From NCBI GenBank assembly GCA_022565155.1, contig JADFKB010000005.1:1-64000 (forward strand): a DNA stretch of 64,000 nt. The letters run 5' to 3'. Made by a program: the position numbers and the translations under genes. Source of the stretch: Chloroflexota bacterium. GTDB taxonomy: Bacteria; Chloroflexota; Dehalococcoidia; DSTF01; RBG-16-68-14. The notes beneath the pieces are model-generated. The model saw nothing but the letters and a program-made list of their open reading frames with translations, was not told the DNA's origin and searched no databases. Below, piece by piece: positions 59,040-64,000 of the stretch. Each line of letters begins with the position of its first letter. Within the stretch, counting starts at the first letter, position 1.

Positions 59040-62000
59040 TTAGTCCAATCCGATCCAGCGCCAGAACGTGCCTCCTCCGGCCGAACCCGCCGCGTTCGGG
59101 AAGCTATCGATCAGGCCCGCGTCCAGCTGCAGGATCCAGAGCGAGTCGAACGCGTCGATGTTGCCATCGCCGTTCACATCCGCGACCTCGGGGCAGGGCA
59201 GCTCCGCGACGTCGACCACATGGAACAGGATCCAGAGCGAGTCGATCGGGTCGATGCCGCCGTCGCAGTTCACGTCGCCCAGTTCTGGTGTTGTCGTTCT
59301 CGGTAGGACGCTCGGCTGGCCGAAGTTCCAGGTGCCGGCCGTGGACGAGAAGACGGTGATCTGGATGTCGCCGGCGGCCGGGCCTGACAGCAGGTTGCGC
59401 TTGGCGACGCAAGGGTCCGGGTCAGCCTTATTTGCAACCCCGGTGCAGTTCGGCACCAGAACGCCTCCCTTGAATATCGGCAGCGTCTGCGCGGTCATGC
59501 CCAGCGGAATGATCGAGGTGTCCAGGAGAAACTCAATAATCAGCGGTAGCTGGGCGGTCCCTGACGGGGCGCTGATGTTCACCTGCTGGCCGATGAGGAT
59601 GAATCCGTTCGGGTTGGGCTGGATGATCACCTTCTCCAGGATCGTCACCAGGCCGCCGACGGGCAGCGTCACGGAGGTCTCGACCGGGTCGGACTGTGTC
59701 GCTCCGTCTCCCTCCGTGTCGGTAGTGACGCGGCCGCCCGGCGGCACCTCCAGCACCCGTTCTTCCGGCAGCGCGGGCGTCGGTGTGAGCGTCGATGTCG
59801 GCGTGTGGGTCTGCGTCGGCGTATCGGTCGGCGCCGGTGTCGACGTGTTGGTCGGCGTGTGGGTCTGCGTCGGCGTCGGGCACTCGCCCGGGCACGGCGT
59901 ATTCGTTGGCGTCGGCGATTCCGCCGGCGTCACTGTCACCGTCGGCGTCACTGTCGGCGTCGTCGTGGGCGTGGGCGCTGCCGCAACAACGCAGTTGATG
60001 CGCAGCACGTCCAGGACTTGGATAAGGGCCGTATCTGTCAATTCGGTCGAATCGATGACCGTGTCGCCATTGGTGTCCATGCCGCGCGCACCGATGTGCT
60101 CCACTCCATCATCGAGGAAGTCGATGTTGCCGAGTGGCGAGTTAGGGTCCGGGTCGGTGCCGTAGAAGACCGATCCGGTCAATCGGTCCAACGTTGCAAC
60201 TCCTACATCGCGATACGATGTCAGCGAGACCGGGAACTGGTTGAGCGCCGGGCAGTGGACCTCCATCCGTACGAGAGTGCCGATCCGGCGGCTGGCCGGG
60301 AACGGCGGGAAGTCGGCCGACTTGGCGGACAGCCTGCGCTCGAGCGGGAGGCCGGTGGCCGGATTGCCAACGCGAACGAGGAGTGCCTCGCAGGTGAAGC
60401 CGGCCAGGTCGGCTGCGTCCGGCCTCCATATCACTTCATCAAGGCAGGAGCGCTCCTGGTATTTGAGTCCGTTGAAGTACGTCTCCGTCTGGAAGCCGCC
60501 GTAGCCGTCCGGAATGGAGCTGGCCTCGATCACGATCTCGAACTTCGCCGATTCCGGATCGTCTGCCACGAATGGCGCGGTACATTTCGTCGGCTGCCTC
60601 GGCTGGTCTACAGGTACGCAGGTGACGCCGGCCCCTTCGGCCCATAGCGACATAGCCGGCGGCGCCGGCTCGCAGTTGATGAAGAGCTTATCCGCGTCGG
60701 CACCGGCGAATGCCTTAACTGCCACGCGGTTGCCGGCTGCATCGATGTACCTGGTGCCGTTCTGGTTTCCGATTGGCGGATTGGTCAGCGTTATGGCCTC
60801 GTCCGGCCCGCCGAACTGCGTGCAGTGCACATCCAGCTCCACTAGTTTGCCGACGTGGGTGCTGTTCGTGAAGGTCGGCAAGAAGGCGCTTTGGGCGCTG
60901 TGACGCACAAACTGCCCGGAGCTGGCGGCGTTGCTGCACGAGAAGCTGTCCGGCCAGACAACTTCATCGCTGCAGGTGGCGCGCGGGAGCCACTGGAGAC
61001 CGGCGCTCAGCTTGACTTCCGATACGAATCCGCCGTAGCAGCCGCCCGGTTTGCCCGGCGCCGTCGGCGTCGCCGTCGGACAGCCGGCTGGCGTCGGCAG
61101 CAGGTTGGCGTTGATCGTGACGGTGAACTTGCCCTCCGCCTCTTGGCCTACGAAGAAAAAGGCGGTGCACTTCTCCGGCTTGACGAACGGCGTCGGCGTC
61201 GCCGTGGGCGTCGGCGCTGGGGTTGCCGTGCTGGGGGCGACGGCGTCGCAGTCGATCCCCTCGGCGCCGAGCGAGATCAGGGGCCCCGGTGTCTGCGCCG
61301 GCGTTTCGGTCGCCGTTGGTGTGAGCGTAGGCCCGCCCTGGGTGACGGTAGGCGTGGGCGTCGCCGTCGGCGTGACCGTCGGCGTCGGGGTCGGCGTGTT
61401 CGGGTTCGTGCAGTGCAGGGTGATCGTGTTGCCTCTCGCAGCGGTGATCAGGCCGCCGAACTCGGCGTAGGCGTTGCCGCTGGTGCCGGCGTTGGGCCCG
61501 CCCAGCGCCTCTAAGGTGAGCGTGTGCCCCTGAACCTTGTCAGTTGTGCAGTTGAAGCTGAAGACGAACAGGTCGCCCTTGTGGAAGCTGGCCGGCGGGT
61601 TAAGCAGGCCGGTCAGGGCGCCACAGCCGACGCCGAATCCGTTGTCGTTACACAGGAACGTGATGTCTGCCGGCGGCACCGTAGCATCTAGCCACGGCTG
61701 CGCCACCACGGCGCTCTTGAACGTCGGGCCGATGCGGAACGCCAGCATCACGCTGGTTAAGTCGTCCGCGCCGGCGATGGTGTCGATGTCGCCAGACTCA
61801 TCCACATCCACCTCGCCGTTGATGATGTCCACCTGATCGGGGCTGCCCGTAAGGAGAGGCAGCAACACGTCGGCCAAGTCGTCTGCGGCGTCGACGGTGC
61901 CGGACTCATCCACATCCACCTTGCCGTCGATGATGTCCACCTGGTCGGTGCCGCCGCCAAGGAGAGGCAGCAACACGTCGGCCAAGTCGTCATCGCCGTT

Positions 62001-62519
62001 GGTTTCGACTGTGCCATCCTGATCCACATCCACCCCGCCCTGGATGATGTCCACCTGGTCGGCGTCGCTGTACAGGATAAATGCATTGGCACCGACGTAG
62101 CCGTTGGTCAGCGGGATGGCGTCAGCGCTCACCGTGACCGTGAACGTGGTGCCGATCAGTACGCAGACGTCGCCAGGAGCCTTGGTGCCCGGACAGGTTA
62201 TCGTGGGGCTGACGGTCATGCTCATCGCCAAGCTAAACAGCAACACGTCGGGCAGGTCGTCGTCGCCGTTGGTCTCGATGGTGCCATTCTGATTCACATC
62301 CACCTTGCCGTTGACGATGTCCACCAGGTCGACGCTGCCGTCAGAGAGACGCAGCACCACGCCGGTCAAGTCGTCATCGCCGTTGGTTTCGATGCTGCCA
62401 TTCTGATTCACATCCACCTTGCCGTCGATGATGTCCACCTGGGCGGCGGGGGCGCCAGCGAGAGGCAGCAACACGTCGGCCAAGTCGTCCTCGCCGGTGG
62501 TGACGATGCCGGGTTCGTG
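59040..62519 (-). CDS. Large secreted/surface protein: EF-hand-like tandem repeats, PT-rich linkers, C-terminal dockerin-like pair; N-terminus missing
   Basis: C-term GDVNCDGGIDPIDSLWILFHV...ADVNGDGNIDAFDSLWILQL; linkers TPTPTVTPTATPTPTVT. Frame continues upstream of the ORF-caller start (HEPGIVTTGEDDLADV) until the repeat register is lost near 62520. Confidence 0.85.
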   Translation of the reverse strand, partial: HEPGIVTTGEDDLADVLLPLAGAPAAQVDIIDGKVDVNQNGSIETNGDDDLTGVVLRLSDGSVDLVDIVNGKVDVNQNGTIETNGDDDLPDVLLFSLAMSMTVSPTITCPGTKAPGDVCVLIGTTFTVTVSADAIPLTNGYVGANAFILYSDADQVDIIQGGVDVDQDGTVETNGDDDLADVLLPLLGGGTDQVDIIDGKVDVDESGTVDAADDLADVLLPLLTGSPDQVDIINGEVDVDESGDIDTIAGADDLTSVMLAFRIGPTFKSAVVAQPWLDATVPPADITFLCNDNGFGVGCGALTGLLNPPASFHKGDLFVFSFNCTTDKVQGHTLTLEALGGPNAGTSGNAYAEFGGLITAARGNTITLHCTNPNTPTPTPTVTPTATPTPTVTQGGPTLTPTATETPAQTPGPLISLGAEGIDCDAVAPSTATPAPTPTATPTPFVKPEKCTAFFFVGQEAEGKFTVTINANLLPTPAGCPTATPTAPGKPGGCYGGFVSEVKLSAGLQWLPRATCSDEVVWPDSFSCSNAASSGQFVRHSAQSAFLPTFTNSTHVGKLVELDVHCTQFGGPDEAITLTNPPIGNQNGTRYIDAAGNRVAVKAFAGADADKLFINCEPAPPAMSLWAEGAGVTCVPVDQPRQPTKCTAPFVADDPESAKFEIVIEASSIPDGYGGFQTETYFNGLKYQERSCLDEVIWRPDAADLAGFTCEALLVRVGNPATGLPLERRLSAKSADFPPFPASRRIGTLVRMEVHCPALNQFPVSLTSYRDVGVATLDRLTGSVFYGTDPDPNSPLGNIDFLDDGVEHIGARGMDTNGDTVIDSTELTDTALIQVLDVLRINCVVAAAPTPTTTPTVTPTVTVTPAESPTPTNTPCPGECPTPTQTHTPTNTSTPAPTDTPTQTHTPTSTLTPTPALPEERVLEVPPGGRVTTDTEGDGATQSDPVETSVTLPVGGLVTILEKVIIQPNPNGFILIGQQVNISAPSGTAQLPLIIEFLLDTSIIPLGMTAQTLPIFKGGVLVPNCTGVANKADPDPCVAKRNLLSGPAAGDIQITVFSSTAGTWNFGQPSVLPRTTTPELGDVNCDGGIDPIDSLWILFHVVDVAELPCPEVADVNGDGNIDAFDSLWILQLDAGLIDSFPNAAGSAGGGTFWRWIGLD
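61757..62515 (-). repeat. Array of about six EF-hand-like repeats (protein and DNA level)
   Basis: VDIIDGKVDVNQNGSIETNGDDDLTGVVL / VDIVNGKVDVNQNGTIETNGDDDLPDVLL / VDIIQGGVDVDQDGTVETNGDDDLADVLLPLL / VDIIDGKVDVDESGTVDAADDLADVLLPLL / VDIINGEVDVDESGDIDT. Confidence 0.88.
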
Positions 62520-63254
62520 GACCCTCAGACCTACACGCTGGATACCGGCTCACCCCGAGTCGCGGACATTCCTTTCCGATCGACCGCGAAACAGTTGGAG
62601 ATCGACTTCCTCGGCCGGATCGACAAGCCACAAACGGGGCTGACCGAGCCGATGATCCTGCCGCAAGGCCAACTCGAGATTCAGAACTTCTGGCCGACCG
62701 GTAAACTCTCGCACGGGCTGCCCGGGCCGATGCGCGACGTCCTGCTGCTTTACTGTCCGGGCGAAAACCAGACACCCTTCATCTGGCGGCTCGCCGACCC
62801 GTGGGAGCCCAAGCAGGTTCTGGACCTGGGCCAACTCACCAACCACCAGCCGCTTGTGCTGCGCCCCAAAGACAATTCCTATACCAATCGGACTTGGAAT
62901 AGCGAAGGTTTCCTGGGCCAGCTCATGAGCAAAAAACCCGGCCAAAATCTCATAGATGCAAGCGGCACCGAGGTCTTCGCCTCATCCAGCGAAACGATCA
63001 AGTACATCCAACTGCTTTGCTTCTACGACACCCTGCCCCCGCCGGACTTCCGCAAGACCGGGTTTCCCTACGCCGTGAGCTACCAACGCTCGCTGGGCCG
63101 ACAGCTTGACCTGACCCGTTTGCTCGCTGGCCGCAGACTCATCATCATCGGGCACCTCGAAGACACGCCCCTGCCCATCCCCATGACCGTCGAGGGCAAA
63201 GAGATCCCCTCCACCGGCTGGACCGTTGTTCGTTGGGTGTATGATTTTAAGTAG
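62517..63254 (+). CDS. Unknown protein, probably 5'-truncated at a junction
   Basis: (DDAGF)VDPQTYTLDTGSPRVADIPFRSTAKQLEIDFLGRIDKPQTGL...WTVVRWVYDFK*. No RBS at the GTG; the frame is open to the left into the repeat region. Confidence 0.55.
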   Translation: MDPQTYTLDTGSPRVADIPFRSTAKQLEIDFLGRIDKPQTGLTEPMILPQGQLEIQNFWPTGKLSHGLPGPMRDVLLLYCPGENQTPFIWRLADPWEPKQVLDLGQLTNHQPLVLRPKDNSYTNRTWNSEGFLGQLMSKKPGQNLIDASGTEVFASSSETIKYIQLLCFYDTLPPPDFRKTGFPYAVSYQRSLGRQLDLTRLLAGRRLIIIGHLEDTPLPIPMTVEGKEIPSTGWTVVRWVYDFK

Positions 63255-63358: not shown

Positions 63359-64000
63359 ATGCCCATGATCCAGACGATCAACCTGACCAAGCGCTACGGC
63401 AACCTCATGGCGCTATCGAACCTCAACCTCGAAATCGAGCAGGGCGATTGCTTCGGGTTCATCGGCCCAAACGGCGCGGGTAAGACCACCACCATCAAGG
63501 TCCTGGCCACCCTCCTCAAACCCACTTGGGGCGAGGCTCGCATCGACGGCTTATCCGTCGGCCCGGTCAACGCACGACAGGTCCGCTCCGTCATCGGCTA
63601 CGTCCCCGACTACTTCGGCTCCTACGAAGACATGGTCGTCCAGGAATACCTCGAGTTCTTCGCCGCCAGCTACAACATCCACGGCGACAAGCGTAAACAG
63701 GTCATCAACGACGTCCTGGACCTGACCGACCTGGCCTACAAGATCGACGCCGAGGTCAACTCGCTGTCACGCGGCATGCAGCAAAGGCTCAGTGTTGCCC
63801 GCGTCTTGCTGCACGACCCGAAGGTCCTCCTGCTGGACGAGCCCGCCTCCGGCCTGGACCCACGCGCCCGTATCGAGATGCGCGAGCTCTTAAAAGAACT
63901 CCACCGCATGGGCAAGACCATCCTCATCAGCTCCCACATCCTCCTTGAGTTGGCCGACCTGTGTAACCGCGTCGGTATCATCGAGCAGGGCGAACTTAAA
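63359..64000 (+). CDS. ABC transporter ATP-binding protein, 3'-truncated by window edge
   Basis: MPMIQTINLTKRYGNLMALSNLNLEIEQGDCFGFIGPNGAGKTTTIKVLATLL...SLSRGMQQRLSVARVLLHDPKVLLLDEPASGLDPRAR...; open to base 64000. Confidence 0.93.
   Translation, partial: MPMIQTINLTKRYGNLMALSNLNLEIEQGDCFGFIGPNGAGKTTTIKVLATLLKPTWGEARIDGLSVGPVNARQVRSVIGYVPDYFGSYEDMVVQEYLEFFAASYNIHGDKRKQVINDVLDLTDLAYKIDAEVNSLSRGMQQRLSVARVLLHDPKVLLLDEPASGLDPRARIEMRELLKELHRMGKTILISSHILLELADLCNRVGIIEQGELK

Follow-up and report, generated by a model that had tools for sequence, protein, structure and literature searches.

The window, a 64,000-nucleotide stretch that corresponds to bases 1-64,000 of contig C92, very probably belongs to an inter-phylum chimeric contig, in which a piece of Phycisphaeraceae (Planctomycetota) DNA was joined onto the contig of an unrelated bacterium. 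Assembly rather than biology almost certainly created the junction. This reading is supported by three observations: a different phylum lies on each side of the junction, everything to the right of it is a contig tail of ~2.6 kb (C92 ends at 65,098), and relatives of the left-hand genome continue differently past the same gene. The same observations support the sequence-only reading, which had preferred a misjoin. A chimera between two phyla explains all the observations made here. The draft genome comprises 2.80 Mb in 185 contigs and is 92.8% complete and 2.1% contaminated; its fragmentation suggests that it is itself a metagenome-assembled genome (MAG).

Table 1. Features at the right-hand end of C92, numbered from base 1 of the contig and of the window
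Feature	Position	Strand	Remarks
Secreted repeat protein, 3'-terminal part	59040..62522	-	N-terminus and start missing
Junction	62502..62522	.	21 bases readable as repeat unit (minus) and planctomycete gene (plus); codon-level comparison with other repeat units and five planctomycete genes
Membrane protein of ~750 aa, C-terminal third	62502..63254	+	67-81% aa identity to Phycisphaeraceae/Planctomycetota MAGs
ABC transporter ATPase	63362..64000, on to contig position 64,294	+	ABC_tran
LTXXQ-type gene	64,460-65,098 (L013:6460-7098)	-	matches Phycisphaeraceae, 74-76% (L010, L011); C92 ends there

The native side of the junction

The open reading frame on the left extends from stop to stop over 59,040-62,549 (minus) and encodes tandem V-D-x-[D/N]-E-x-G units and Pro/Thr-rich linkers, followed by a C-terminal dockerin type I domain (Pfam Dockerin_1, residues 1068-1117). 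Relatives of the repeat protein were found in 16 of the 18 genomes of the order, its own included, and the best of them come from the same family. The same query, which matched strongly among the genomes of the order, found no counterpart in four planctomycete genomes (0/4). The affiliation of the left side was also apparent from MnmA, which is encoded ~8 kb to the left of the repeat protein: it is 71-76% identical in four genomes of the same family and 43-48% identical, over long segments, in planctomycete genomes. MnmA and a repeat-protein homologue share one contig in three relatives (G002, G004 and G005), and thus the gene order on the left side is conserved up to the repeat gene.

In two of these relatives (G004:C7 and G002:C105), the repeat protein resembles that of the window in its C-terminal half (49-62% identical), its dockerin type I end and its MnmA neighbourhood. 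However, it is complete and begins with a signal-like N-terminus in both, whereas the copy in the window is cut, with tandem repeat units at the cut end. Past the intact repeat protein, both relatives carry an array of further secreted-protein genes on the same strand.

The window's genome and its family relatives hold numerous paralogous secreted proteins that combine Pro/Thr-rich linkers with dockerin-like domains at the C-terminus. They amount to dozens of matches per genome and lie, in the window's genome, on contigs C19, C46, C50, C62, C72, C81, C103 and C181 besides 59040-62483 (minus). Dockerin_1 was the only domain that Pfam recognised in the two members scanned.

Planctomycete genes in the contig tail

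The tail holds the truncated membrane protein, the ABC ATPase and the LTXXQ protein. Its nucleotide identity to Phycisphaeraceae genomes is about 73-86%, including 80% over 1,865 bases to one Phycisphaeraceae MAG (L009, E = 0), a match far beyond chance. A DNA match was found in 49 of 51 Phycisphaeraceae genomes, the weakest covering no more than short stretches of the ABC gene. A different plus-strand protein had been proposed to start mid-frame at this point, and this is indeed the case: the plus frame (...GGDDAGFVDPQTYTLD...), closed by a stop at 63,254, aligns with residues 495-749 of a Phycisphaeraceae protein 749 aa long and lacks the N-terminal part. The alignments begin at the first residues of the frame in three Phycisphaeraceae MAGs and one Planctomycetota MAG, and a full-length relative shows weak DUF7408 similarity. 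The ABC ATPase gene is 84-86% identical at the nucleotide level to Phycisphaeraceae/Planctomycetota sequences (L010, L053 and L012), while its best homologues in the same family as the window's genome reach 39-40% amino acid identity and the highest value among all relatives is 53%.

The order of the first two genes in the tail agrees with that in Phycisphaeraceae. The membrane protein and the ABC ATPase are adjacent and in the same order in L010, and this pair in L010 and L009 is about 78-84% identical to the window in nucleotide sequence, but the membrane protein of the window is without the N-terminal two-thirds. L010, like C92, has an LTXXQ-type gene downstream of the pair, ~3 kb further along; two other genes separate it from the ABC gene in L010, whereas in C92 it follows the ABC gene directly.

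The sequence-only reading had also noted a change to an A-rich style to the right of the junction. A shift in composition was recovered, in that the tetranucleotide profile of the tail is nearer to the planctomycete reference than to its own genome (difference +0.069) and lies beyond all 167 segments of the own genome (average -0.151, maximum +0.058), with planctomycete segments averaging +0.140. It exceeds the most extreme own segments only narrowly, however, and GC3 overlaps between the two sides (0.77-0.86 on the right versus about 0.83 on the left), so composition was rejected as a proof by itself. The tetranucleotide lean agrees with the gene evidence and would not be decisive alone.

These results bear on the possibility that both sides are native and that the two genes simply stand head to head in this species. 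The continuous sequence would fit such an arrangement, but both genes are without their N-terminal part, the genes on the right are affiliated with another phylum, and the two relatives that were read past the intact repeat gene (G004 and G002) have other neighbours there. We therefore regard a native head-to-head arrangement as barely credible.

A short stretch readable as either source

Two truncated genes had been described as meeting head to head near 62518, with the repeat register lost at HEPG. Both half-genes were confirmed, and codon-level comparison narrowed the junction to the interval given in Table 1, the left limit of which could be 62,496, given two ambiguous Gly codons. The minus-strand frame still follows the repeat register V-D-E-S-G-T-V, here as V-H-E-P-G-I-V, as far as the V codon at 62,520-62,522; upstream of this codon the pattern is lost, with no fit to the other five repeat units. 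The plus-strand frame gives the planctomycete reading G-D-D-A-G-F-V-D-P from ~62,502 onwards, and the match to Phycisphaeraceae DNA starts at 62,492-62,514, varying with the relative. Judged from the relatives on either side, the 21 bases are thus tenable for both sources. Lineages differ across the join, and the genes on both sides are cut there with no intact rest on C92.

The misjoin had been envisaged as running through the repeats. A repeat-to-repeat join was rejected because the Phycisphaeraceae partner genomes (0/4) are without the repeat; what is found instead is a coincidental match of ~20 bases inside a repeat unit. At equal base frequencies, ~18 exact 20-mers are expected to be common by chance to two unrelated genomes of this size, and the overlap therefore needs no biological cause. 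Elsewhere in the window's genome, the closest copies of the 21-base junction carry 3 mismatches. No native continuation could be identified for the repeat gene, as none of the contigs of its own genome that were examined has a 15-mer in common with 62,381-62,620.

The missing continuation counts against the chimeric contig, and so does a second observation. Identical 127-base ends of another contig of this genome, C50, suggest a final assembly k of 127, and a match of 20 bases would then be too short by itself to bring contigs together in the final step. It follows that the join would have to stem from a smaller k, from gap closing or from a chimeric read.

Horizontal transfer, misassembly and consequences

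We also considered a real horizontal transfer, the alternative named by the sequence-only reading, in which a Phycisphaeraceae fragment of at least 2.6 kb entered by recent illegitimate or microhomology-mediated recombination at the ~20 bases and destroyed the secreted repeat gene. Short microhomology occurs in illegitimate recombination, which the overlap would fit, and the join is continuous in the assembly, with no N run at the junction. However, only one boundary is in view, since C92 stops at 65,098 within the foreign part and any second boundary would lie beyond it, and no mobile-element gene (integrase, transposase) was recognised among the open reading frames and Pfam matches from 59 kb to the contig end. 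Moreover, the membrane-protein gene is a cut fragment: a full-length query finds only residues 495-749 in the window's genome, at the junction, and the N-terminal two-thirds are absent from it. The truncated gene occurs in none of the 29 relatives (0/29) and is confined to the own genome among 30. Transfer would also need an integration that cut genes on both sides and fell, by coincidence, no more than 2.6 kb from a contig end. Taken together, this makes a transfer highly improbable.

The chimeric contig, in contrast, may have arisen as follows. Bases 1 to ~62,510 of C92 very probably come from the genome that makes up most of the bin, and ~62,510 to 65,098 from a Phycisphaeraceae (Planctomycetota) bacterium that presumably shared the sample. 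Either the assembler or a chimeric read may have fused the two genomes inside the secreted-protein repeat gene at ~20 bases common by chance, and the bin would then have inherited the Phycisphaeraceae tail. Misassembly is a recognised source of error in MAGs, rarer than mis-binning, and the GUNC paper (PMC8201837) names chimeric contigs produced by misassembly as a class of error. Like known misassembly chimeras in MAGs, C92 is a two-source contig with both genes cut at the join and the foreign part at the contig end, and no departure from them was found.

The case matters for quality control only. Annotation from C92 would credit three planctomycete genes to a phylum that is not theirs and point to a spurious transfer. 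We recommend cutting the contig at ~62,500 and either removing the tail or giving it a separate bin.

Contig C50 (L084, G000:C50, 1-7732) was considered as the missing partner of C92. It has the expected neighbour genes, in that homologues of the array in G002 (proteins of 487, 281, 272, 341 and 345 aa) lie on this separate contig of the window's genome and not on C92. It was rejected because its 127-base end overlap is with itself and not with C92. Joined at these ends, C50 forms a circle of ~7.6 kb, on which the cyclic order of the secreted-protein genes is that of the linear array past the repeat protein in G002 (L050). C50 could represent a tandem duplication of the array that was collapsed, or else a small circular element.
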